Positions 12,394 to 35,431 of a stretch of 35,518 bases of DNA are shown in pieces; the first letter of the stretch is position 1; each line of letters begins with the position of its first letter. This DNA is from Tannerella sp. (GTDB lineage: Bacteria; Bacteroidota; Bacteroidia; Bacteroidales; Tannerellaceae). The translations under genes and the position numbers were made by a program. The notes beneath the pieces are model-generated. The model worked only from the letters and a program-made list of their open reading frames with translations, was not told the origin of the DNA and ran no database searches. The DNA is taken from assembly GCA_031255595.1 (NCBI GenBank), contig JAIRSF010000227.1, positions 1 to 35,518 of the forward strand, written 5' to 3'.

Positions 12394-13203
12394 TCAGGTG
12401 GGCGGGCCTGTTGTTTGTCGCATGGGAAACATAGCGTCGTTACCGGATTTTTCCGTCAGATATTGCCAGAACCTGACGGGCATGTTTTTCTTATGGAGGC
12501 GCGGATTGATACGTTCTTTGATCGTCATAGCTTTGAAATAATTTTTCCACAAATCCTGAAATAGTTTTTCATCTTCCGCCATCAGCGATTCGTCCAATTT
12601 GCCGCTTAATAGATGGTCGCCGCCGGCAAACGTGATTTCTTTGACAGTATGTAAATCGTAGAAGTAGCCGTATTTGCGGCGCAGATCGTAGATGACCCAT
12701 TGCTGGTCGGCGAAACGGTCGGCAAAATGACCGACCGCTAACGGCAGCGCATTGTAGATCGGATTGATAGGGGCAAAAAAGATATCGTCGGCCGCTTTCC
12801 GAAAGCGTACGAATTGCCGGATGTATTGCGCTTCGTGGCTTACCTTGCGGGCTATTTTTTCCACTTCAAGTATATCCGCATCGCCAAAGTTGTATTCAAT
12901 CTTCCGGTTCGCGGCAAATATTTTGCACAGATAGCGGAATAACAATTCATCGCTTCCGTCCAATTCGGACAACCATACGTGAAACAGCATGTTGCGAACA
13001 TTCTTTTGCACTTTTTTCTCCAATGCCCTCCATACACGATTCGCATGTTCTTCCCCGGTAACGACCGTATGGACGGTTTCCGCAAACAGGGGAGGGATAT
13101 CGCCGGCCTGAAGAAGTTTTTCAGGGAAAATATTCAGGCTATATGCGTCGAAAACGGCACATAACAGTCCTTCAAATGTTTTATCATAAAAAAAGAGGGT
13201 CAT
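12394..13203 (-). CDS. TIGR03915/DUF4130-type putative DNA metabolism protein
   Basis: FFYDKTFEGLLCAVFDAY; RQFVRFRKAADDIFFAPINPIYN; PVRFWQYLTEK; 4-nt overlap with the upstream radical SAM gene. Confidence 0.83.
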   Translation of the reverse strand: MTLFFYDKTFEGLLCAVFDAYSLNIFPEKLLQAGDIPPLFAETVHTVVTGEEHANRVWRALEKKVQKNVRNMLFHVWLSELDGSDELLFRYLCKIFAANRKIEYNFGDADILEVEKIARKVSHEAQYIRQFVRFRKAADDIFFAPINPIYNALPLAVGHFADRFADQQWVIYDLRRKYGYFYDLHTVKEITFAGGDHLLSGKLDESLMAEDEKLFQDLWKNYFKAMTIKERINPRLHKKNMPVRFWQYLTEKSGNDAMFPMRQTTGPPT

Positions 13204-14468
13204 TCGGGAAAAACAATAGATAATTGCCGTTCGTCGTGTATCATTTTTTTCTTTTTGGGTTCGGTCAGTACTTTTCGTACATATTCCGGCGTGACTTCGT
13301 TGACCGTATTTACCGGCAGTTCGCGGCAGGTAATGAAGTAGCGGGCTTTTTTCATTACGATGCCGATTTTTTTCAGTTGTTCCGACGTTAGCCGTCCGAA
13401 TTTTCGAGCGGATATAATCAGTCCGGCCGATTTTACGCCTATACCCGGAACGCGGAGGATCATCCGGTAGTCCGCCGTATTAACATCGACCGGAAACTGT
13501 TCGGGATGGCGCAGCGCCCAGGCCAATTTGGGATCTATCTCCTGATCGAGGTCAGGGAAACGATCGTCTACAATTTCGTCGGCGCGAAATTCGTAGAAAC
13601 GCATCAGCCAATCTGCCTGATACAGCCGGTTTTCACGAACGAGCGGCGCCTGCCGCAAAGCGGGCAATCGTTTGTCGTATGAATTGACGGGTATAAACCC
13701 CGAATAATAAACACGTTTCATACTCGGACGTTTATACAGGGCGGAGGAGATATACAATATGTCTTTATCGGACTCCGGCGTTGCCCCTACAATCATCTGG
13801 GTGCTTTGTCCGGCCGGAACAAAACGGGGCGTATGACGGAATTTACGCCGGTCTTCGAGGCTTTGCAGCATCCCTTGCTGAATATATCGCATTGGTGCAA
13901 AAACGCTTTGAAAATCTTTTTCCGGCGCCAGGAGTTTCAGGTTTTGCTCGGTCGGTATTTCCAGGTTTACACTCATACGATCGGCATAAAGTCCGCCTTC
14001 GTTAACCAATTCCCGGCTACATCCGGGGATACTTTTCAGATGTATATATCCGTTAAAACGGTGTACGGTGCGCAGGTCTTTGACGACACGCACCATTCGT
14101 TCCATCGTATAATCCGGATTGCGAACTACGCCCGAACTGAGAAACAGGCCTTCGATATAATTACGGCGATAAAATTCGATGGTTAATTCCACTAATTCGC
14201 TTACGCTGAACGTGGCCCGTTTCAGGTCATTGCTTTTCCGGTTGATGCAATAGGCACAATCGTAAATGCAGTGGTTCGTGAGCATGATTTTCAGTAACGA
14301 GATACACCGCCCGTCCTCCGTAAAACTGTGGCAAACGCCCATCCCGCCGACGGTATTTCCGATGCCGCCGGAAGAATTGTTGCGTACCGTTCCGCTCGAA
14401 GCGCACGACACATCGTATTTTGCCGATTCCGCCAAAATCTTTAGCTTGTCTAATACGGTTTCGTTCAT
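13200..14468 (-). CDS. Putative DNA modification/repair radical SAM protein (TIGR03916-like)
   Basis: CIYDCAYCINRKSND radical-SAM CxxxCxxC motif; C-terminal HhH MILRVPGIGVKSAGLIISARK; likely start MNETVLDKLK. Confidence 0.87.
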   Translation of the reverse strand: MNETVLDKLKILAESAKYDVSCASSGTVRNNSSGGIGNTVGGMGVCHSFTEDGRCISLLKIMLTNHCIYDCAYCINRKSNDLKRATFSVSELVELTIEFYRRNYIEGLFLSSGVVRNPDYTMERMVRVVKDLRTVHRFNGYIHLKSIPGCSRELVNEGGLYADRMSVNLEIPTEQNLKLLAPEKDFQSVFAPMRYIQQGMLQSLEDRRKFRHTPRFVPAGQSTQMIVGATPESDKDILYISSALYKRPSMKRVYYSGFIPVNSYDKRLPALRQAPLVRENRLYQADWLMRFYEFRADEIVDDRFPDLDQEIDPKLAWALRHPEQFPVDVNTADYRMILRVPGIGVKSAGLIISARKFGRLTSEQLKKIGIVMKKARYFITCRELPVNTVNEVTPEYVRKVLTEPKKKKMIHDERQLSIVFPE

Positions 14469-14559
14469 AATATGACGAAGATAATAATATGTTGAAATAC
14501 AACTTTTGCCTTTTTTTACATTGCCGCCGGAACACAATCTTACGTGTAAAAACGAACAT

Positions 14560-14611: not shown

Positions 14612-16009
14612 CTATTCTTCTTCGGCGAACATGGGATCCCATGCGGGAAGGCGTATCGGTTTCTGCTTCAGCACCTCTTTTGTTTTGTCGGTAATGTATT
14701 GTTTTTCCACCACTAAGCGGAACATATATTCGTTGAACCATTCGTCGGTCATGATGAGGTGTCCGTTGTTGGCGCCGGGGCCCCAACTGTTTTCTACCAT
14801 CCATTTTTTCGGTTTGCCGTATTCGTCCAGGTCTACGGCCATCAGTGTCATGGCGTGCGACGAACCGCTGCTGAATGTCCGGATACGTTGTTTCTTATCC
14901 ATGCCGAAAGAGGTGCCGAATAATGACGCATAATCGAAATTTTGTATGTCCAGCAGTCCGCGTTCGCGATCAAGGTATTTGCCGACGTCGCATGAGAAGT
15001 ACATCATTGTACTGTCTTTGATCGAACGTATGGCCATCTCTTTGATATCGTCGATCGGAAGGTTCACGTATGTCCAGTTCTCACCGTCGTAGGCATGGCG
15101 ATCGAAATCTATTTCGTAAAGTTTGTAGTATTCACGACTCGGATCGTTCATCAGCATGACATAATTATTTTTCAGATCCGCACCGATATATTCTTTATAG
15201 AAGGATAGGGGAGTGTATTCTTTTGTGGATACGGGATTTCCTCTTGCATCTTTCAATGTCCAGGCGAAACGGGCAGGCGGTTCGCCGAGTGTCAATACAA
15301 GCATCCGGTAGATAACTCCCAGCATTTCCGTTTTTTGTTTTTGCAGGCCGGTAGGGGATGTTCCGTTGGCGGATGCTTCCCGCAGATTCAATCCGAACTC
15401 ATTTAGTTTCAGCTTGAGCAGGCTTGCCATCTGGCGGGTGTTTTCGCTGCTGAAAGTTTCAATCATCACATCGGCGGGTACTACCCCGTATTTGGTGAGT
15501 ATATCCGCAACGCCGGTGAATTGTCCGCCGTCGCTCAGCGGATTTTTAAACAGCCATTCTACCGTTTTATCTTCCATTGGTTTATCGCGGGTGTCGATGA
15601 TACCCTGGAGGAAAAGGTTTGATTTTTCCAGTTGATCCCAAAAGAATGGGTATGTATGGGAAAACTGAAAATCTCTCAGGTTGTAATTGTTTATGATTTG
15701 TGAGCGAAAAACATTGAGGCCGGTGAATAGCCAGCAACGTCCCGATGATTTCTGGTTTGTGATCCCTTTACTGTCTACTTTGTGGGAAAAATAGGTGTCA
15801 AAATGATTTTTATTCTGATAGTTAACGGCCAGCTTGTTGATGTCGTTGTGTGTGATTGCATTTTGCAGCGCTTTGTCGGACGACGTTCCTTTGTAGGATT
15901 GCTTGATTTGTTGAAGCATTTCGGATGTGATACCGCCTTGGGGGTTTTGCCCGGATACCGGAATGGCCATGAGTAGTCCGATGCAGAGGATAAACCTATT
16001 TTTTTTCAT
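14612..16009 (-). CDS. pepC: C1B family cysteine peptidase (aminopeptidase C / bleomycin hydrolase type), exported
   Basis: Signal MKKNRFILCIGLLMAIPVSG; SSGRCWLFTGLNVFRS (Cys), SHAMTLMAVDLDEYGKPKKWMVENSWG (His/Asn). Confidence 0.88.
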   Translation of the reverse strand: MKKNRFILCIGLLMAIPVSGQNPQGGITSEMLQQIKQSYKGTSSDKALQNAITHNDINKLAVNYQNKNHFDTYFSHKVDSKGITNQKSSGRCWLFTGLNVFRSQIINNYNLRDFQFSHTYPFFWDQLEKSNLFLQGIIDTRDKPMEDKTVEWLFKNPLSDGGQFTGVADILTKYGVVPADVMIETFSSENTRQMASLLKLKLNEFGLNLREASANGTSPTGLQKQKTEMLGVIYRMLVLTLGEPPARFAWTLKDARGNPVSTKEYTPLSFYKEYIGADLKNNYVMLMNDPSREYYKLYEIDFDRHAYDGENWTYVNLPIDDIKEMAIRSIKDSTMMYFSCDVGKYLDRERGLLDIQNFDYASLFGTSFGMDKKQRIRTFSSGSSHAMTLMAVDLDEYGKPKKWMVENSWGPGANNGHLIMTDEWFNEYMFRLVVEKQYITDKTKEVLKQKPIRLPAWDPMFAEEE

Positions 16010-16903: not shown

Positions 16904-17914
16904 ATGAATGAAAAGTATCAGGCAGACAGCAAGCGGTATGACGGCGGAATGAAATATCGTCGTGCAGGAGAGAGCGGCGTATTGCTACCGGAGGTTTCTC
17001 TGGGATTGTGGCATAATTTCGGAGGAGATGACGTCTTTTCCAACAGTAAAAAAATGCTTCACATGGCTTTCGACCGGGGGATCACCCATTTTGATTTGGC
17101 TAATAATTATGGCCCGCCGTACGGTTCGGCGGAGGAAACGTTCGGTAAAGTGATGAAAGCGTCTTTTATGCCTTATCGCGACGAGTTGTTTATTTCAACA
17201 AAGGCCGGGCATGATATGTGGCCGGGGCCTTACGGTGAGTGGGGGTCACGCAAAAATCTGGTGAGTAGCCTGAATGCAAGTCTTCGACGCATGCAGTTGG
17301 ATTATGTGGATATTTTTTACTCACATCGTTATGATCCGGTTACTCCTTTGGAAGAAACGTTGCAGACGTTGGTCGATGTGGTTAAACAGGGAAAAGCCCT
17401 GTATGCAGGTATTTCCAAATATCCTGCCGATGCGGCTCGGTTTGCTTACGATTATTTGCGGAAGAGGGATGTATACTGCCTTTTGTACCAGGGGAAATAC
17501 AATCTTTTTTCGCGCGAACCGGAACAGGAAGGTATTTTGCAGCAGGCAAAAGACAATAGGGCAGGGTTTATTGCTTTTTCACCGCTGGCGCAGGGGTTGC
17601 TGACCGATAAGTATCTGAACGGCGAAGTATCCGCAACATCGAGGATGGCAAAAGGAAAATTCCTGAAAAGAGAACAACTGACGGATGAGGTGCTGACGAA
17701 AATACGGAGGCTGACGGAGGTTGCATCCGCACGTAATCAGTCATTGGCGGAAATGGCTTTAGCCTGGTTGTTAAAAGATGAATCCGTTTGTTCCGTCATT
17801 ATTGGAGCCGGTTCGGTCGAGCAATTGGACAGGAATTTAAAAGCCATGGAAAACACTTCGTTCTCCGGCGAAGAGCTGGATCTGATCCATCGGATCTTAA
17901 ACCCTCTTTCATGA
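16904..17914 (+). CDS. Aldo/keto reductase (YghZ/KCNAB-like)
   Basis: MKYRRAGESGVLLPEVSLGLWHNFG; HFDLANNYGPPYGSAEETFG; LDYVDIFYSHRYDP; AGISKYP. Confidence 0.92.
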   Translation: MNEKYQADSKRYDGGMKYRRAGESGVLLPEVSLGLWHNFGGDDVFSNSKKMLHMAFDRGITHFDLANNYGPPYGSAEETFGKVMKASFMPYRDELFISTKAGHDMWPGPYGEWGSRKNLVSSLNASLRRMQLDYVDIFYSHRYDPVTPLEETLQTLVDVVKQGKALYAGISKYPADAARFAYDYLRKRDVYCLLYQGKYNLFSREPEQEGILQQAKDNRAGFIAFSPLAQGLLTDKYLNGEVSATSRMAKGKFLKREQLTDEVLTKIRRLTEVASARNQSLAEMALAWLLKDESVCSVIIGAGSVEQLDRNLKAMENTSFSGEELDLIHRILNPLS

Positions 17915-18711
17915 CGGGTATCATTTTTGATATCAAACGATTTGCCGTACACGATGGCCCGGGTATTCGTGCGACGGCCTTCCTGAAAGGCTGTCCACTT
18001 GCGTGCCGCTGGTGCCACAATCCCGAAAGTATGAAACCGGCGGTCTGTTCGCTACCCAAAAGCGTCCGGGTAGGAAACAAGACTTTTGTCGAAGACGAAA
18101 CCGTCGGGTTTGAAATTTCGCCCGGTGAACTGATCGCCGAATTTCGGAAAGAACAAATATTTATGGAGGAATCGGGAGGAGGTGTGACCTTTTCGGGAGG
18201 AGAACCGCTCATGCAACCGGAATTTCTGGCGGCATCTCTCCGGTTGTGTAAAAAAGAGAATTTTCATACGGCGGTCGACACTTCCGGTTTCACTCCATGG
18301 GAAAACTTTGAGAAGATATTGCCTTTTACGGACTTGTTCCTGTATGATCTGAAACCAATAGATGACGGATTGCATACGAAATATACAGGTGTTTCCAACA
18401 AACCGATCCATGAAAACCTGTTCCGGTTACTGAAAAAAAAGCAACAGGTGCAAATTCGTATTCCGATGATTCCCCGGATCACATTCACCCACGAAAACAT
18501 CGCTCAAACGATCTCTTTTTTACAGAAGTTACCGTTGCCGCCGGCAGGAAAAGTCGATTTATTGCCGTATCACAACACAGCTTCGCACAAATACAAACGG
18601 TTTGGCGTTACCAACTCATTCGAAGGAACGGAATCCGTATCAAAAGACCAACTGCTGGATGCGAAGCGACAATTTGAATCGGCCGGATTTGAGGCCGGAA
18701 TCGGCGGATAA
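17911..18711 (+). CDS. Glycyl-radical enzyme activating protein (radical SAM)
   Basis: IFDIKRFAVHDGPGIRATAFLKGCPLACRWCHNPES; SGGGVTFSGGEPLMQPEF; ATGA overlap with the aldo/keto reductase supports start 17911. Confidence 0.93.
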   Translation: MTGIIFDIKRFAVHDGPGIRATAFLKGCPLACRWCHNPESMKPAVCSLPKSVRVGNKTFVEDETVGFEISPGELIAEFRKEQIFMEESGGGVTFSGGEPLMQPEFLAASLRLCKKENFHTAVDTSGFTPWENFEKILPFTDLFLYDLKPIDDGLHTKYTGVSNKPIHENLFRLLKKKQQVQIRIPMIPRITFTHENIAQTISFLQKLPLPPAGKVDLLPYHNTASHKYKRFGVTNSFEGTESVSKDQLLDAKRQFESAGFEAGIGG

Positions 18712-18741: not shown

Positions 18742-21132
18742 ATGACACCAAGAATCAAACAACTGCGCGAACAAAGCCTGAACGCCGTCAACCGTATTTC
18801 TGCGGAAAGGGCGCTACTGATAACCGAATTTTACGAAAACCATGTGGCGTTCGGTGATTCCGTACCCGTACAACGTGCGAAATCATTCGAATATATATTA
18901 TCTGAAAAAGAAATATGTATCAATGACGATGAACTGATTGTCGGCGAACGCGGGCCGGCGCCCAAAGCAACTCCCACCTATCCCGAAATTACGGTTCATT
19001 CATTGCAGGATCTGGATATTCTTCATTCACGTGAAAAGGTATGGTTTCGCGTGGACAACGAAACGCGCGAGGCGTACGAGAAAATAATCATCCCGTTCTG
19101 GAAAGGGCGTTCTAACCGCGACCGCGTGATGAAAGCCATGTCGCCGGAATGGCACGACGCTTATAATGCCGGCATATTCACCGAATTTATGGAACAGCGC
19201 GCACCCGGTCATACGGTTGCCGGATATAAAATATTCAACAAAGGCATGCTTGATATCATACGGGATATTGAGGAAAGTATAAAAAATATCGACCGGCGGA
19301 ACAACCCGTCGGCTCCGGAGAAAACGGAAGATGCGTCAGCCCCGGATAAAATAGAAGAACTGAAAGCTATGAAGATCGCCGCCGGCGCAATAATCCGTTT
19401 TGCGGAGCGCCATGCGGAAAAGCTCGAACAACGGGCCTGTACGGAAAAGGATCCGGGCAGGAAAAATGAACTGACCGAAATGGCGCGTATATGCCGCAGA
19501 GTGCCGGCGCATGCACCGGCAACGTTTCACGAAGCCTTACAACATTACTGGTTTATTCATCTGGGCGTAGTAACGGAACTAAATCCATGGGATTCGTTCA
19601 ACCCCGGACGGCTTGACCGGCACTTATATCCTTTCTACAAGGCGGAAACCGAAGCCGGCGTTCTGACCCGCGACAAAGCGGTAGAAATACTCGAATCTTT
19701 CTGGATAAAATTCAACAACCACCCCTCGCCGCCGAAAATAGGCGTTACGGCCGAGGAGAGCAACACCTATACGGACTTCTGCCTGATAAACCTCGGCGGA
19801 CTGACTCCCGACGGAAAAGACGCCGTCAATGAAATGTCATACATCCTGCTGGACGTCATTGAAGAAATGCGCCTCCTGCAACCGGGTTCCATGGTGCAGC
19901 TAAGTCGTCTGAACCCGGATACATTCATTGACCGGGCTGTGAAGATCGCCAAAACCGGATTCGGACAACCGTCCGTCTTCAATACCGACGCCATCGTTCA
20001 GGAACTCGTCAACCAGGGCAAAAGCCTCGAAGACGCCCGTAACGGCGGCGCCAGCGGATGTGTAGAAAGCGGCGCTTTCGGTACGGAAAGTTATATTCTG
20101 TGCGGATACTTCAACCTGCCGAAAATCCTTGAAATAACACTGCACAACGGCTTTGATCCACGCACACAAAAACAGGTCGGATTGCATACCGGCTTTCCCT
20201 CCGAACTGAAAACATACGACCAACTGCTGGGCGCCTTCAAAAAACAGGTGCAATATTTTGCCGGAATTAAAATCGAAGGCAACAACGCCATAGAAAAAAT
20301 TTTCATCTCGCATATCCCGACCCCATTTCTGTCACTAATCATAGACGACTGTGTTGCACGCGGCATAGATTATATACAAGGCGGTGCACGATACAACACA
20401 AATTATATCCAGGGAGTAGGTCTGGGCACGATAACCGATTCGCTGACCTCCCTCAGGATAAACGTATATGAAAACAAAAACATAACGTTGCCGGACTTTG
20501 TTGAAGCTCTGGAACAGAACTTCGAAAACAGGGATGAACTATTATATCGCCTACTGTATAAAACACCTAAATACGGTAACGACGACGACCGCGCCGACAC
20601 ACAACTAATAGATGTATTCAACATATACCACGATGCCGTCGCAGGACATAAAAGTCCGCGCGGAGCGGACTATCGCATCAACCTGCTTCCCACGACCTGC
20701 CACGTTTACTTCGGAAGCGTCATGCATGCCGGCCCCGACGGAAGGAAAGCCGGATTGCCTGTATCGGAAGGAATCTCACCGGTACAGGGGGCCGACACAA
20801 ACGGGCCAACCTCGGTCGTTAAGTCCGCCGCAAAAATCGACCACCTGCGTACGGGCGGCACGCTACTCAACCAGAAATTCAGCCCTTCATTCTTCGACGG
20901 CGATTCCGCCATACGGAAAATTTCCGCCCTGGTTCGCAGTTATTTCAGGATGAACGGACATCATATACAATTTAATGTAGTAGATGCCGATACATTGCGC
21001 GACGCCCAGCGGCATCCGGAAAAACACCGGAACCTCATTGTGCGGGTAGCCGGATATAGTGACTACTTCAATGATCTGGGAATAAGCCTGCAAAATGAAA
21101 TCATCATGCGCACCGAACATGCAAGCCTCTGA
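18742..21132 (+). CDS. hypD: Glycyl radical enzyme, probable trans-4-hydroxy-L-proline dehydratase (HypD-like)
   Basis: 796 aa; NGGASGCVESGAFG (C440/E442), RVAGYSDYF glycyl-radical loop (G771); pocket residues match recalled C. difficile HypD positions at a constant offset. Confidence 0.78.
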   Translation: MTPRIKQLREQSLNAVNRISAERALLITEFYENHVAFGDSVPVQRAKSFEYILSEKEICINDDELIVGERGPAPKATPTYPEITVHSLQDLDILHSREKVWFRVDNETREAYEKIIIPFWKGRSNRDRVMKAMSPEWHDAYNAGIFTEFMEQRAPGHTVAGYKIFNKGMLDIIRDIEESIKNIDRRNNPSAPEKTEDASAPDKIEELKAMKIAAGAIIRFAERHAEKLEQRACTEKDPGRKNELTEMARICRRVPAHAPATFHEALQHYWFIHLGVVTELNPWDSFNPGRLDRHLYPFYKAETEAGVLTRDKAVEILESFWIKFNNHPSPPKIGVTAEESNTYTDFCLINLGGLTPDGKDAVNEMSYILLDVIEEMRLLQPGSMVQLSRLNPDTFIDRAVKIAKTGFGQPSVFNTDAIVQELVNQGKSLEDARNGGASGCVESGAFGTESYILCGYFNLPKILEITLHNGFDPRTQKQVGLHTGFPSELKTYDQLLGAFKKQVQYFAGIKIEGNNAIEKIFISHIPTPFLSLIIDDCVARGIDYIQGGARYNTNYIQGVGLGTITDSLTSLRINVYENKNITLPDFVEALEQNFENRDELLYRLLYKTPKYGNDDDRADTQLIDVFNIYHDAVAGHKSPRGADYRINLLPTTCHVYFGSVMHAGPDGRKAGLPVSEGISPVQGADTNGPTSVVKSAAKIDHLRTGGTLLNQKFSPSFFDGDSAIRKISALVRSYFRMNGHHIQFNVVDADTLRDAQRHPEKHRNLIVRVAGYSDYFNDLGISLQNEIIMRTEHASL

Positions 21133-21216: not shown

Positions 21217-21298
21217 CGGCCCCTTTTGAAACGGTTTCTTTCCATTTCTTTTCTTTTTTCTTATATTTTGTGTATTTTTGCCTGAAAATATAAAATTC

Positions 21299-22330
21299 AT
21301 GATAGATATATCTACATTGGTAAGGGACAATATCCTTCGACTTAAACCTTATTCCTGTGCCCGTAGCGAGTATAGAGGTGAGGCCTCCGTTTTTCTGGAT
21401 GCAAATGAAAATCCGATGAATACGCCTTATAACCGGTATCCGGATCCGTTGCAGGAGGATTTGAAGGAAAAAATTGCGGAAATCAAATATATAAGGCCTG
21501 CACAAATCATGTTGGGTGTAGGAAGCGATGAACCGATAGATCTGGTTATCCGTATATTTTGTGAGCCGGGAGAAAATAATATGGTAGCAATAGATCCCAC
21601 CTACGGCATGTATCAGGTATGTGCGGATATTAATAATGTAGAATACCGGAAAGCTTTGCTGAACGAAGACTATACGCTCGATGCGCAGCGTGTGTTGGAT
21701 ATGGCGGACGACCGGACAAAGGTGCTGTTCCTTTGTTCTCCCAACAATCCTACGGGAAATGTATTAAACCGTAGAGAAATACGCAAAATACTGAACAACT
21801 TCGGCGGAATCATCGTAATAGATGAAGCCTACATAGATTTTTCGTCCGAACCGTCATGGTTGCGGGAGCTGGATGAACATCCGAACATGATCATCCTGCA
21901 GACGTTTTCCAAAGCATGGGGACTTGCTGCCGTCAGATGCGGCATGGCCTTTGCATCCGAAGAAATAATCGGGTTTTTCAACAAAGTTAAATATCCCTAT
22001 AACATCAATACATTAACACAAAAGTTTGTATATGAGCAGTTGGAACATAAAGATCGTAAGAACAAATGGGTTAAAATACTTCTCGAACAACGCGAATTGT
22101 TAGCCGAAAAACTTCGGGCCATACCGTTTGTGGAGAAAATTTATCCGTCGGAGGCAAACTTCCTGCTGATAAAAGTTCCCGATGCGAATGATATCTACAA
22201 TAAATTAGTAAAGAAGGGCGTTATTATACGTAATCGCAACAACATCTCCCTGTGCCTCGGATGTCTGCGTATTACCGTTGGCGTCGCAGAAGAAAATGAA
22301 ATATTAATAAACGAATTAAAACAATTATAA
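21299..22330 (+). CDS. hisC: Histidinol-phosphate aminotransferase
   Basis: [56 protein letters not shown]. Confidence 0.94.
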
Positions 22331-22334
22331 TCTT

Positions 22335-22709
22335 ATGGAAGTAAAAGGAAAAATTATTGTCGTACAACCTCTTCAGTCCGGCGAAGGTAAAAACGGCACA
22401 TGGAAAAAGCAGGAATATGTGATAGAATACGAACAGAACTCACAATATCCGCGTAAAATGATGTTTAACCTTTGGGGTGACAAGATCGACCAGTATAACA
22501 TACAGGAGGGACAAACCCTGAATGTCGGTTTCGATATCGACTGTCGTGAATACAACGGTCGTTGGTATAACGATATACGCGCCTGGAAGATCGACGTGAT
22601 ACCTGCGGAAGAAGTCGGAGGTACAACAACACCGTCCGCGCCGCCGTCGTTCACCCCGATGAATAGTGGCGACACCCCTTCGGACGATACGTCCGATCTT
22701 CCGTTTTAA
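22335..22709 (+). CDS. DUF3127 domain protein (OB-fold/SSB-like)
   Basis: MEVKGKIIVVQPLQSGEGKNGTWKKQEYVIEYEQ...PRKMMFNLWGDKID; Pro/Ser/Thr linker and acidic C-terminus DDTSDLPF. Confidence 0.85.
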   Translation: MEVKGKIIVVQPLQSGEGKNGTWKKQEYVIEYEQNSQYPRKMMFNLWGDKIDQYNIQEGQTLNVGFDIDCREYNGRWYNDIRAWKIDVIPAEEVGGTTTPSAPPSFTPMNSGDTPSDDTSDLPF

Positions 22710-22779
22710 AATTCGGTTAGCGACAAGCCTGTTCATCAAACCGGCTCCGAACGGCGCTTTTCCCCAAACGAACCTCGCC

Positions 22780-22824
22780 CACAAGACGTGTGAACGAGGG
22801 TCGAAATGGGTTGAACAGGATTTT
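22780..22824 (+). repeat. Copy B of a ~45-bp intercistronic repeat
   Basis: CACAAGACGTGTGAACGAGGGTCGAAATGGGTTGAACAGGATTTT; flanked by CCTCG/CGAGG stem arms. Confidence 0.6.
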
Positions 22825-22920
22825 TGAAGTGACCTTGAATGATGCGATCCTTACCCGGATTTGTTCCGGGCACAGGCGCTTCATGTAATGACTTTTGACA
22901 TACCCTCACAAGCCAGACAA

Positions 22921-24081
22921 ATGAAAAAAAGAGCTTTATTTATTGACCGGGACGGCACTCTGATCATAGAACCCCCGGTAACCTTTCAGGTTGATACGCT
23001 TGAACAGCTTACGTTTCTTCCGGGAGTTATACGTAACCTGTATTTCATACGTAAAAACCTTGATTTTGAGTTGGTCATCGTAACCAATCAGGACGGACTC
23101 GGAACGCCTTCGAATCCACAGGAAAATTTTGACCGCGTACAGCAGAAAATGCTTGAAGTCTTCGCCAACGAAGGTGTCCTTTTCGATAAGATCCTTATTG
23201 ACCCTTCTTTTCCGGAAGACAACTCACCAAACCGCAAACCGCGTACCGGAATGTTAAAAGAATATATGACGGGCGACTATGACCTTGAAAATTCATATGT
23301 GATCGGTGACCGGAAAACAGATATGGAGTTGGCTGCAAATCTTGGATGTAAAGGCATCTTAATAGCTGCCGGCGGGATTACCATGGCATCCGCACCGGAA
23401 GATGATATACAACATGCAGCCGAAGAATACACGTCCCGTCATAAAGACAGATTCCATACCTTCGATTCGTGGGAAAAGATAAAAGACTTTCTTTTTGCCG
23501 GCGAGCGCATTGCGACGGTACGGCGTACGACGAAAGAAACGGATATTCATATCAGCCTGAACTTAGACGGAAACGGCGCATGTGATATCTCGACCGGCAT
23601 AGGATTCTTTGACCATATGCTCGAGCAGATCGGAAAACATGGAGGATTAGACCTGACCATAAAAGTCTGTGGTGACCTGCATGTTGACGAACATCATACG
23701 ATAGAAGATACGGCCATTGCTCTCGGCGAAGCGCTGTCGACGGCGTTGGGAAACAAACGCGGCATAGAGCGCTATGGTTATTGCCTGCCGATGGACGATT
23801 GTCTTTGCCGCGTAGCGCTCGACTTCGGCGGACGTGCATGGCTCGTCTGGGATGCGGAATTTAGCCGCGAAATGATCGGAGGGATGCCGACGGAAATGTT
23901 CCTGCATTTTTTTAAGTCATTAAGCGACGCAGCCGGTATGAACCTGAATATCTGGGCGGAAGGAGAAAACGAACACCATAAAGCCGAGAGTATATACAAA
24001 GCGTTTGCCCGGGCGATTAAAATGGCCATTAAGCGCGATGTATATAAATACGAATTACCCAGCACAAAGGGAGTTTTATAA
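22921..24081 (+). CDS. hisB: Bifunctional histidinol-phosphatase / imidazoleglycerol-phosphate dehydratase
   Basis: [17 protein letters not shown] (HAD) and [40 protein letters not shown] (IGPD). Confidence 0.95.
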
Positions 24082-30020: not shown

Positions 30021-30797
30021 ATGAATAAACTAAAAATCATTCCATTCGTTTTAGCTGTCACATTACCGTTGGTAGCGCAGGATCTGCCGAAAGTAATCGC
30101 CCACCGCGGCTATTGGCAGACATACGGTTCCACCCAAAACTCCATCTGTTCATTCGAACGTGCAGCCGAAATCGGAGCCTACGGTTCCGAATTTGATGTT
30201 CATATGACATCCGATAGCGTGTTGATCTTATTCCACGACAATACGATCCACAACTTGAATATTCAGGAAGTCCCGTACTCCCGCCTGATGGACATAAAAC
30301 TGCCCAATGGGGAATGTGTCCCTACTTTACGTGAATTTCTGGAAGCAACACGCAAAACCGGATCCGACATCAAACTGATTTTTGAACTCAAGCCCCATGC
30401 AACGCCGGAGCGTAACCGCGAAGCTGCACGTCGTTCGGTCGAAATGATACGCGAAAAAAAACTGACCTACCGTACCGAATTTATCACATTCAGTCTTGAT
30501 GCCGGCAAAGAGTTGATACGCTTGGCGCCGGAAATTCCGGTATACTATCTGAATGGGGAACTCTCTCCCCAGGAACTTAAAAATCTGGGATTTGCAGGGC
30601 TTGATTATCATTTCAACGTCATGCGTAAAAACCCCCAATGGTTTAAAGAGGCAAAAAAACTGGGATTGGGCGTTAACGTATGGACTATAAACGATCCCGC
30701 CATTATCAAAGAAATGGCCGATCAGGGCGCCGATTTTATCACGACCGATATCCCATCCCAAGCAATCATCCAACTGAATCACAGAAAAAATGAATGA
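30021..30797 (+). CDS. Glycerophosphodiester phosphodiesterase family protein
   Basis: Signal peptide; VIAHRGYWQTYGSTQNSICSFERAAEIGAYGSEFDVHMTSDSVLILFHDNTIH; GLGVNVWTIND. Confidence 0.93.
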   Translation: MNKLKIIPFVLAVTLPLVAQDLPKVIAHRGYWQTYGSTQNSICSFERAAEIGAYGSEFDVHMTSDSVLILFHDNTIHNLNIQEVPYSRLMDIKLPNGECVPTLREFLEATRKTGSDIKLIFELKPHATPERNREAARRSVEMIREKKLTYRTEFITFSLDAGKELIRLAPEIPVYYLNGELSPQELKNLGFAGLDYHFNVMRKNPQWFKEAKKLGLGVNVWTINDPAIIKEMADQGADFITTDIPSQAIIQLNHRKNE

Positions 30798-31368
30798 TTA
30801 TCAAGAATATCAGGTATCCGAAGAAAACGCGGAAAAAGATCCGGACTTAAATATAGAAACAATACAAAACGATTCAAAAACCAGAACAAGATTAAATTGG
30901 TATGCACTGTATACAAAGCCGCGGGCCGAAAAACGCGTTGACGAAAAACTTAAAACAAGAGGTATTGAGTCCTATTTGCCGCTTCATCGCTCGCCACGTG
31001 TATGGTCTGATCGGGTCAAAATAGTCGATATCCCATTGTTTAACTCCTACATCTTTGTCAGATGCAGAAAATCGGAGATATTGTATATGAACAAAATCTG
31101 TGGGGTTGCCAGAATCGTATTTTACGACGGGAAACCGGCTATAATACGTCAGAATGAAATCGACTCCATCAAAACCTTTATCAAAAAAGCCTCCGGTAAA
31201 GCTTTATGTAAGGGTGATGAAGTAGAAATACTGACCGGTTCTATGAAAAATATATCCGGGAAAATCGTCAGAATAAAAAAGAAATACCTCTTATTGCATA
31301 TTCAACAATTGATGGCTACCGTATGTGTCGATATGGAAAACGTCGCTCCGACAAACAGGATAAAATAA
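30790..31368 (+). CDS. UpxY-family transcription antiterminator (NusG-like)
   Basis: LNWYALYTKPRAEKRVDEKLKTRGIESYLPLHRSPRVWSDRVKIVDIPLFNSYIFVRC; C-terminal KOW region. Confidence 0.9.
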   Translation: MNDYQEYQVSEENAEKDPDLNIETIQNDSKTRTRLNWYALYTKPRAEKRVDEKLKTRGIESYLPLHRSPRVWSDRVKIVDIPLFNSYIFVRCRKSEILYMNKICGVARIVFYDGKPAIIRQNEIDSIKTFIKKASGKALCKGDEVEILTGSMKNISGKIVRIKKKYLLLHIQQLMATVCVDMENVAPTNRIK

Positions 31369-31472
31369 AATTATTGCATATGTGTCATAATTAATATTAG
31401 TAAAGTTGAAAAAAAAAATATACCTTTGTTGTTCTCAATTACTATGGAGAAAAACATATAAACGAAAAAAAG

Positions 31473-32276
31473 ATGATCAAATTAGAGAAAATAATAAAGA
31501 TTCTTCCGGCATTATTTGCATGGGCGCTGTTTTCTGCGTGCAGTACGCCGAAAGATGTAATCTACTTCCAGGATGCAGGAAACTACACCGCCTACAAAGA
31601 TGTTGAAAAATATGAAGTATACATTCATCAGGACGACCTGCTTGCAATTATGGTAAATAGCCGGGCGACCGAGGCTGCGTTGCCGTTTAATCTTCCGATA
31701 GCAAACTATTATGTAGGAGGAGAATCATACGGACAACAACGCATTTTAGGATACCTGGTCGACAAAGAAGGAACCATTGATTTTCCAATACTCGGAAAAC
31801 TACATATCGAGGGATTGACGCGGAACCAGTTGCGCGATATGATCATAGAAAAACTGAAAACAAGCGGACAGTTGAAAGATCCGATCGTGACGGTTAATTT
31901 CCTGAATTTCAAAGTGTCCGTCCAGGGAGAAGTGAACCGGCCCGGAAGTTTCAACATTACAGGTGAACGCATCACACTGCTGGAAGCGCTGAGTATGGCC
32001 GGTGACCTGACGATCTACGGCCGCCGCGACCGGGTAGCCGTCATCCGCGAAGCGAAAGGAACGCGCATGATTCTCTACCACGACCTTTCCAGTACGGAAG
32101 TATTCAAGTCACCCTGTTACTATCTTCAACAAAACGATATCGTCTACGTAGAACCCAACAAACGCAAGATTCAACAAAGTAATATAAATCAAAATAACAG
32201 TGCAAGCGTCTGGTTATCGATCGTATCCGTCATCCTGACGGCGACAAGCGTTATTATAAGTTTAAATAAAAAATAA
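31473..32276 (+). CDS. Polysaccharide biosynthesis/export protein (Wza-like, SLBB)
   Basis: Lipobox FSACSTPKDVIYFQD; SVQGEVNRPGSFNITGERITLLEALSMAGDLT; C-terminal TM helix. Confidence 0.92.
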   Translation: MIKLEKIIKILPALFAWALFSACSTPKDVIYFQDAGNYTAYKDVEKYEVYIHQDDLLAIMVNSRATEAALPFNLPIANYYVGGESYGQQRILGYLVDKEGTIDFPILGKLHIEGLTRNQLRDMIIEKLKTSGQLKDPIVTVNFLNFKVSVQGEVNRPGSFNITGERITLLEALSMAGDLTIYGRRDRVAVIREAKGTRMILYHDLSSTEVFKSPCYYLQQNDIVYVEPNKRKIQQSNINQNNSASVWLSIVSVILTATSVIISLNKK

Positions 32277-32282
32277 CAAAAA

Positions 32283-34676
32283 ATGAACGAACTATCTATA
32301 AACAAAGGAGAGTCTTACACAAAAGAAGAAGAAGATTCTTCCCTTAATTTGCGTGATATAGTCCATGTTGTTTTCAAAAATTGGTATTGGTTTGCCCTTT
32401 CCACCATTGTCTGTATGACGGTCGCCGTCGTCTACTTAATGTGGGCTCCGCAAATCTACGAACGGGGAGCGACGGTTCTTATAAAAGACGACAAAACAAA
32501 CAGTGCGGAAACCGCCATGTTTCAAGATCTTTTCCTTTTCGAAGGAAAAAGTAACGTCTATAATGAGATGATCGTATTTAAAAGCCAAAATCTGATGGCA
32601 GAAGCCGTACGCCGCCTGAAATTAGACATAAGCTACACCGTAAAAGACGGACTGCGTACACAGGAGCTTTATACCAATACGCCGGTTGCTTTCACATTCA
32701 TGAATATTGAAGACACACAATGGTTAACGTTCAAAGTGAAACTTCTTCACAATAACGAAATCGTTCTTTGGGATTTCAAAACCAAAGGACTGGAAACCGA
32801 TCAGATGGTTGTTGTGAACATGAACGACACGGTGAATACGCCGGTCGGTACGATGGTGGCAACCCCAACTTTGTGGTACAACGAAACATGGTTCGAAAAG
32901 CCGGTTACAGTCACCAAATCCCATCAGAAAGACGTCATCAACAGCTACCGGAATGCACTGATGGTGAATCTTGCGGACAAACAAACTTCCGTAGTGAATC
33001 TATCAATTAAAGATGAATCCACACAACGCGCCGAAGATTTACTGAATACGATCATTGCCATTTATAACGAAGAAGCCATCAATGATAAAAACATAATAGC
33101 GGTCAATACGGAAAATTTCATAAACGACCGGTTGATTATCATTGAGCGGGAACTTGGTTATGTAGACGAAAGAATACAATCCTATAAGACGACGCACCAG
33201 TTGACGGATATCCAGAGCGATGCGCAGATCGCCCTGCAGGAAAGCAGCGAGTCGGACAGGGAGATCTCCAATCTGCAAAACAAACGCTCAATGGCCACTT
33301 ATATACGCAATTATCTCGCAACCCCGTCTACCGGAACCGAATTAATCCCTTCGAACACAGGTGTAGACGATATGAACGTAGAAGGACAGATCTTGAATTA
33401 TAACGAAACACTGCTCAAACGGAATCGCCTGATTGATAACAGTAGCGAACGAAACCCCGTTGTTCAGGATCTGAACAACAGCCTGAACGCTATGCGCCAG
33501 AACATCATGCGTGCGGTGGACAACCTGATCGTAAATCTGGATATACAATTGCGCAGTGTAAAGGCGCGTACGGAAAGAACGCGGGCGCGTATCTCCGCCG
33601 TTCCCAAGCAGCAAACGGAAGTGACCAGCATAAGCCGCGAACAAAAAATAAAAGAAGAACTCTACCTCTACCTGTTGAACAAACGCGAAGAAAACGCGAT
33701 CAGCAAAGCAATCACCGAAAAGACGGCCCGTATAATAGACGCCGCCACAGGTGCGACTTTTCCGGTAGAGCCACGTAAAATGATTATTCTGGCAGCCGCA
33801 TTATTAATCGGCTTTGCAATCCCCGGATTAATTATCTACTTCATACTGCTGTCCGATATAACAGTCCGCGGACAAAAAGACCTGCGTAACATCTTATCTA
33901 TTCCGTTCCTGGGGGAAATTCCGTTCAAGAAAATGAAAAATAAGGGTAAAAACATGCCCAATATCGTCGTTAAGGAAAGCGGACGCGACCCGGTTTCCGA
34001 AGCATTCCGTATCATCCGTACCAATATGGATTTTATGCGGGTGAAACTGGATGATATAAAAGTGATAACGACCACATCGACAAATGTTGGTTCCGGTAAA
34101 ACGTTTGTATCTTCCAATCTCGCCGTAAGCCTTGCCATGACGGGAAAGAAAGTGATCCTGATTGATATGGACATCCGTAAAGGTACATTAGGTAGAGGCG
34201 TTGATACACGTAAAAATATTGCAGGCTATGATGTCGGTTTAACCAGTTACTTATCTAAAATAGTGGTGAACGTAGAATCACTCATCATACAAGATCAGGA
34301 ATATCCGAATATAGATATCATACGTTCCGGCCCGGAACCCCCAAATCCGGCCGAGTTGCTTCTAAGTCCGCGTTTGGACGAATTAATCAAAGAACTGCGT
34401 GAAATGTACGATTACATTGTCATAGATAATGTTCCGGCCGGAATGGTGGCCGATGCGATGATCTCAAATCGCGTAACGGATCTTACGCTCTATGTCATAC
34501 GCGCCGGAAAGATGAACCGCCGTTTGCTGCCTGAAATAGAACAGTTCCACCGGGATGAAAAACTGAAAAATATGGCTGTCATTTTAAACGGAGTCGGATC
34601 GGGACTCGGTTATGGTTATGGATATGGGTATAGTTACGGTTATGGTTATGGCTATGGAAATGATAAAGAGAAATAA
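32283..34676 (+). CDS. Polysaccharide biosynthesis tyrosine autokinase (Wzc/BY-kinase)
   Basis: Wzz domain; TSTNVGSGKTFVSSNLAVSLAMTGKKVILIDMDIRKGTLG; C-terminal Tyr cluster GYGYGYGYSYGYGYGYG. Confidence 0.93.
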   Translation: MNELSINKGESYTKEEEDSSLNLRDIVHVVFKNWYWFALSTIVCMTVAVVYLMWAPQIYERGATVLIKDDKTNSAETAMFQDLFLFEGKSNVYNEMIVFKSQNLMAEAVRRLKLDISYTVKDGLRTQELYTNTPVAFTFMNIEDTQWLTFKVKLLHNNEIVLWDFKTKGLETDQMVVVNMNDTVNTPVGTMVATPTLWYNETWFEKPVTVTKSHQKDVINSYRNALMVNLADKQTSVVNLSIKDESTQRAEDLLNTIIAIYNEEAINDKNIIAVNTENFINDRLIIIERELGYVDERIQSYKTTHQLTDIQSDAQIALQESSESDREISNLQNKRSMATYIRNYLATPSTGTELIPSNTGVDDMNVEGQILNYNETLLKRNRLIDNSSERNPVVQDLNNSLNAMRQNIMRAVDNLIVNLDIQLRSVKARTERTRARISAVPKQQTEVTSISREQKIKEELYLYLLNKREENAISKAITEKTARIIDAATGATFPVEPRKMIILAAALLIGFAIPGLIIYFILLSDITVRGQKDLRNILSIPFLGEIPFKKMKNKGKNMPNIVVKESGRDPVSEAFRIIRTNMDFMRVKLDDIKVITTTSTNVGSGKTFVSSNLAVSLAMTGKKVILIDMDIRKGTLGRGVDTRKNIAGYDVGLTSYLSKIVVNVESLIIQDQEYPNIDIIRSGPEPPNPAELLLSPRLDELIKELREMYDYIVIDNVPAGMVADAMISNRVTDLTLYVIRAGKMNRRLLPEIEQFHRDEKLKNMAVILNGVGSGLGYGYGYGYSYGYGYGYGNDKEK
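34608..34658 (+). repeat. Degenerate 6-bp (GGNTAT) tandem repeat encoding the Gly-Tyr tail
   Basis: GGT TAT GGT TAT GGA TAT GGG TAT AGT TAC GGT TAT GGT TAT GGC TAT GGA. Confidence 0.9.
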
Positions 34677-34693
34677 AAAAGTAGCGGCAAAAG

Positions 34694-35431
34694 GTGAAAT
34701 TGTTTAAAACAAAAAAATCATACATTAGATCCGGATTGTTATACGGTATAACCGATATTCACAGCCATCTGCTTCCGGGTGTTGACGACGGGATAGACAC
34801 TTACGACGAGTCCGTCAAAGTGTTGCACTGGCTGAAAGACAAAGGGATACGCCGTATTTACCTGACGCCTCATGTAATGTCCGATCTGCAGAAAAATACG
34901 CGGGCCTACCTGACGGAACAATTCAATGCCTTCACTAAACGCCTTGAAGATGAACAGGTAGAAGACATTCCCGAATTAAAACTCGGATCCGAATATATGC
35001 TCGAGGCGGCATTTGAAGAACATAAGAAGGAAGGGTTGATCACCTACGCCGACCGGCAGGTGTTAGTCGAAACTTCCTATATGTTTCCGCCGATAGATTT
35101 TATGCGGCTACTTATCAATTTACAGGAAGACGGATATTCGCCGGTGCTTGCTCATCCAGAACGTTACCGGTATATGGAGGAACGTGATTATACGTACCTG
35201 AAAAAACAAAACATATCATTTCAACTAAACATCTTCTCTCTGGCAGGTGCATATGGAAATTATGCAAAAGAGAAAGCCGAAAAACTGTTGAAATGCGGAT
35301 ACTATAATTATGCCGGATCGGATTTCCATTGTCTGAAACGCCACGAAAACAGTTTTTCTGTCAAAATACTGACAAAAAAACAACAGGTCGCCCTCAAAGA
35401 ACTTTTTGATAACAATAACCGGCTGTGGTAA
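34694..35431 (+). CDS. CpsB/CapC-type tyrosine-protein phosphatase (PHP domain), GTG start
   Basis: DIHSHLLPGVDDGIDTYDESVKVLHWLKDKG; LAHPERYRYM; YAGSDFHCLKRH. Confidence 0.92.
   Translation: MKLFKTKKSYIRSGLLYGITDIHSHLLPGVDDGIDTYDESVKVLHWLKDKGIRRIYLTPHVMSDLQKNTRAYLTEQFNAFTKRLEDEQVEDIPELKLGSEYMLEAAFEEHKKEGLITYADRQVLVETSYMFPPIDFMRLLINLQEDGYSPVLAHPERYRYMEERDYTYLKKQNISFQLNIFSLAGAYGNYAKEKAEKLLKCGYYNYAGSDFHCLKRHENSFSVKILTKKQQVALKELFDNNNRLW

Follow-up and report, generated by a model that had tools for sequence, protein, structure and literature searches.

Hydroxyproline is an amino acid of collagen, and HypD, the glycyl radical enzyme (GRE) that dehydrates it, was reportedly first described in a 2017 Science paper. 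In Clostridia, ProC catalyses the usual step after HypD. The activases of GREs usually carry two additional iron-sulfur clusters. HypD is already established in Firmicutes and Bacteroides (PMC11574389), and the closest known counterpart is that of C. difficile (PDB 6vxc and 6vxe), whose H160, D278, D339, F340, and E436 variants are inactive and whose D278 and D339 are strictly conserved in HypD and not in other GRE eliminases (eLife structure paper, PMC7077986). A ferredoxin-like insertion is absent from the activases of PFL and of GRM5 propanediol dehydratase (PMC6325248). The function of this ferredoxin-like domain is described as largely unknown in PMC10239695, in which IbsAE activity is independent of the domain's clusters; for 4-hydroxyphenylacetate decarboxylase, the portion of the same article that cites Selvaraj 2014 gives a shortened radical lifetime upon domain removal.

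We analysed a stretch of 35,518 nucleotides from a Tannerella sp. genome, hereafter the window. An uninterrupted open reading frame on its forward strand (18742..21132) encodes hypD, a GRE of 796 aa with the thiyl radical residue Cys440, the CXE residue Glu442, and an RVAGY motif bearing the glycyl radical residue Gly771. The protein passed the NCBI HypD model NF043068 with 1201 bits (cut-off 1100) and remained far below the cut-offs of the models for sulfopropanediol dehydratase, CutC, arylacetate decarboxylase, and PFL. Its top PDB match was C. difficile HypD (6vxc; 998 bits, 53.8% identity over 780 aa by phmmer), followed at about half that score by glycerol dehydratase (517 bits). Lower scores were obtained for HplG (7vua, 395 bits), which is therefore not the nearest solved relative, CutC (~387 bits), isethionate lyase (362 bits), and PflB (85 bits). 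A Foldseek search with the AlphaFold model also returned 6vxc as top match (TM 0.93, 53% identity). Confidence in this model is moderate overall (mean pLDDT 78) and low in the active-site loops, so no claim is built on loop geometry. Phylogenetic analysis placed the window protein within the HypD clade that includes C. difficile, with a support of 100 against three other GREs. A preliminary description of this DNA had called the gene a 4-hydroxyproline dehydratase over PFL, choline lyase, or diol dehydratase, and had proposed alignment to the GRE families and an overlay on the HypD structure as checks and a position outside the HypD clade as refutation; the model score, the PDB scores, the fold match, and the position inside the clade all uphold its call.

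Residues were mapped by phmmer alignment to 6vxc, in which native numbering equals the chain index minus 20. H160, D278, S334, F340, C434, E436, Y450, T645, and G765 of C. difficile HypD correspond to H157, D284, S340, F346, C440, E442, Y456, T651, and G771 of the window protein, respectively. Codons and alignment agree on the constant +6 offset that had been given for Cys440, Glu442, Gly771, Asp284, Ser340, Phe346, Tyr456, and Thr651, and the pairing of His157 with H160 also held, as a 9-residue insertion around residue 190, in the very stretch that had been named, shifts the offset from −3 to +6. Asp339, absent from the earlier list, maps to Asp345, and all five residues whose variants are inactive in PMC7077986 are kept. 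A suspected active-site difference at 'A752' had to be abandoned: C. difficile HypD has Asn as native residue 752, and HypDs vary at the aligned position (H 73, N 22, E 6, Y 4, T 3, S 2). His758, the residue of the window protein there, is therefore no active-site difference. Each of the ten diagnostic residues is identical in all 116 HypDs, and positions 157, 284, 340, 345, 346, 456, and 651 mostly differ in 17 other GREs. A HypD-like GRE might act on another substrate, as a C-N lyase such as HplG or as an N-methyl- or cis-hydroxyproline dehydratase, and HplG and two N-methyl-hydroxyproline dehydratases, all GREs, are among the fold matches. However, these score 395–459 bits versus 998 for HypD, and all ten HypD residues are present, including the HypD-specific Asp278/Asp339 pair, which leaves another substrate very improbable. 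Judged by sequence and fold, the window enzyme is a further HypD, ordinary as enzymology, that resembles the C. difficile enzyme in its catalytic and binding residues and differs from it in the 9-residue insertion and in His instead of Asn at 752.

The activase distinguishes the system from that of C. difficile. It is a radical SAM protein of 266 aa, encoded on the forward strand (17911..18711; ATG at 17911 is a more likely start than TTG at 17788) and separated from hypD by a 30-base gap. In each of the 74 loci that hold both genes, the window among them, the activase precedes hypD on the same strand, in most cases at a short distance. The CX3CX2C motif of the radical SAM cluster (Cys28, Cys32, and Cys35; 17992..18015, forward strand) is invariant in 35 aligned short activases. 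The protein shares this motif, the radical SAM core, the C-terminal half, and the adjacency to hypD with HypD activases of family NF043069, such as that of Cetobacterium (L134, 450 bits), but lacks their 8-Cys ferredoxin-like domain: it aligns to the model at positions 2–41 and 98–299 only, skipping positions 42–97, and scores 279.5 bits, below the cut-off of 425. Unrelated ferredoxin-like frames in the window's own genome match NF043069 at positions ~41–104 alone, and thus the missing stretch is the ferredoxin-like part. The equivalent stretch in Cetobacterium and Parabacteroides HypD activases holds eight or more Cys; that of the window activase holds one Cys in 57 aa. The segment that replaces the domain (residues ~42–69, 18034..18117, forward strand, with this one Cys) is predicted to form a beta-hairpin with strands at 46–54 and 57–65 (block-mean pLDDT ~88–95). 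As read from these comparisons, the locus very probably represents an activase-hypD module that serves the anaerobic utilisation of trans-4-hydroxy-L-proline, with an activase that is the usual HypD activase minus two auxiliary clusters.

A damaged or misassembled activase in the MAG would be another account, and the window does come from a fragmented assembly that is 77% complete. However, many assemblies contribute to the 85 HypD-linked activases that share this architecture, the linker is constant at 55–59 aa with 0–1 Cys in all 67 measurable activases of 80 public-genome relatives and in that of the window, and the predicted activase fold has a mean pLDDT of 92. Because the architecture recurs in independent genomes, the activase is not a broken gene, and we regard damage as practically negligible. 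Recruitment of a PFL-type activase to HypD, in place of a HypD activase minus its domain, is improbable as well. The closest solved fold is the single-cluster PFL-activating enzyme (3c8f, 3cb8; TM 0.85), which is likewise without the domain, differs in its partner, and is 30% identical, and the deep branches of the activase tree are poorly resolved; this enzyme was the sole complete GRE activase returned by the PDB search, however, so that the fold match is biased. Recruitment is opposed by the HypD activase model, which scores best, whereas the PFL activase model TIGR02493 gives 192 bits (cut-off 231.75) for a protein whose partner is HypD. Furthermore, four Bacteroidales PFL-linked short activases split from the rest with a support of 100 and have a linker of 38 aa versus 59 in the window activase by the same measure, and the window's own genome holds a separate PFL-activase pair (C176). 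The GRM5 propanediol dehydratase activases, non-PFL and likewise reported to be without the ferredoxin-like insertion (PMC6325248), differ from the window activase in their GRE partner and their microcompartment loci. Alignments for structure prediction were built without sequences from the plasmid collection described below.

HypD-linked activases were sampled from relatives in public genomes, related genomes, the wider phylum, and a plasmid collection; no Firmicutes HypD turned up in a scan of viral contigs, so comparators were drawn from the plasmid collection. Eighty-five activases were without the domain (nearly all Bacteroidota), 12 had the 8-Cys domain, and one was half-reduced; the short form thus prevails among the Bacteroidota sampled. 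Bacteroidota make up most of this sample, as the search began from a sequence of that phylum, and the few Firmicutes in it give no frequencies for theirs. We found no published account of domainless HypD activases in the searchable literature, which omits most subscription journals. Two Enterococcus plasmids encode a domainless activase that is annotated merely as 'radical SAM protein' or '4Fe-4S cluster-binding domain-containing protein', and activase counts from the curated model would thus miss the short form. Both activase types occur among species of the window's own genus, with the short activase in genomes G017 and G020 and the long form, in the order hypD-activase, in G003, G011, and G023. 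The latter three and a Parabacteroides locus (L135) share a module type that also encodes a Bacteroidales HypD but differs from the window in gene order, in a HypD that is ~50% identical to that of the window, and in an activase with the 8-Cys domain. In L135 (Parabacteroides distasonis, NZ_OY725750, a 168-kb record labelled plasmid), hypD and the three-cluster-type activase lie beside xylose-use and RND efflux genes. The half-reduced activase (L152) has an 84-aa linker with just five Cys (one CX2CX2C and a distant CP) and is possibly a one-auxiliary-cluster intermediate.

The domainless state arose in at least two lineages, in Enterococcus separately from the Bacteroidota-dominated clade. The HypD tree unites the large domainless clade in a single branch (support 99), whose sister is a three-member clade with the domain; the HypD of Enterococcus clusters with those of C. 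difficile and Cetobacterium (SH-aLRT 100), and a tree forced to unite all domainless HypDs was rejected by the AU test (p = 6.6e-6). The activase tree, which was built without most columns of the ferredoxin-like domain, groups the Enterococcus activase with that of Cetobacterium (support 96) and is otherwise weakly resolved; taken by itself, the HypD tree therefore overstates how firmly a swap for a different short activase can be dismissed. Among GRE activases of other lineages, those examined outside the PFL type retain the domain. This favours loss, and we infer that the domain was lost rather than gained. The missing clusters might still be provided in trans by a dedicated ferredoxin, the domain having been split off and not dispensed with, and other ferredoxin-like proteins are encoded in the window's own genome. 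The 85 domainless loci scanned (1.07 Mb) held no split-off ferredoxin gene beside hypD: only two frames of <400 aa had two CX2CX2CX3C motifs, and neither adjoined hypD. The replacement hairpin, moreover, is confidently predicted; we consider provision in trans unlikely. On balance, we favour the reading that the ferredoxin-like domain has been dispensed with at least twice in HypD activation, in the Bacteroidota-dominated clade and in Enterococcus, with L152 half-reduced. This would constitute a natural experiment in which one-cluster activases stand against three-cluster ones for the same reaction, including within a single genus, and from which the function of the domain could be read. HypD supplies naturally matched pairs that differ in the presence of the domain, and the domainless clade makes the open question of the auxiliary clusters a comparison that is feasible with existing sequences. 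When HypD was searched for residues that vary with the type of activase in the two domainless lineages alike, only one weak column emerged (residue 699, Ile versus Leu/Met).

The putative activase of the window would be a descendant of the usual HypD activase that lost two auxiliary clusters and in which the short beta-hairpin closes the gap. With a single [4Fe-4S] cluster and an electron probably received from flavodoxin or ferredoxin, it would cleave SAM and abstract a hydrogen from Gly771 of HypD. Based on the mechanism in PMC7077986, the glycyl radical would generate a thiyl radical on Cys440, which would abstract the C5 hydrogen of hydroxyproline, with protons handled by Asp284, Glu442, His157, and Asp345 while the 4-hydroxyl leaves, yielding (S)-delta1-pyrroline-5-carboxylate (P5C). 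Both the enzymatic activity of the window HypD and its cognate activation by the neighbouring activase are predicted from these similarities. Unlike in the C. difficile system, proC was not found: ProC (PF14748) had no match in the window's own genome, the assembly of which is 77% complete, and was matched in 41 of 61 genomes searched. The genome does encode a PutA-like protein (G000:C273, L167) in a 1159-aa open frame that runs off the start of the locus and has proline dehydrogenase and aldehyde dehydrogenase domains, and conversion of P5C to glutamate by this PutA-type protein is thus the likelier route. Neighbours of hypD in relatives include Xaa-Pro aminopeptidases (M24), DPP-IV, a proline-racemase-family hydroxyproline enzyme, an ornithine-cyclodeaminase-family reductase, and a C69 dipeptidase, which fits the use of collagen-type peptides. 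The window has none of these neighbours, save a C1B-type peptidase (14612-16009) on the opposite strand to hypD.

Upstream of the activase, an aldo/keto reductase of the YghZ/L-glyceraldehyde 3-phosphate reductase type (16904..17914, forward strand, PF00248) has a stop that overlaps the activase start (ATGA). It adjoins hypD only in the window and in no other locus examined, so its role in the pathway is doubtful; a functional tie to the hypD module was dropped, and nothing is built on the overlap. On the other side of hypD, hisC-DUF3127-hisB (21278-24081) adjoins the module in the window and also in G017 (L126), on opposite sides and in opposite orientations, and a rearrangement within the genus has thus affected either the module or its flank. 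Elsewhere, the window encodes a TIGR03915/TIGR03916 pair on the reverse strand (12394-14537), a putative DNA repair protein and its linked radical SAM protein, each of which exceeds its cut-off by far. The start of a capsule/exopolysaccharide locus (30790-35431) encodes an UpxY-type antiterminator, a polysaccharide export protein, a Wzc-like tyrosine kinase with a GYGYGY tail, and a Cps4B-like phosphatase.
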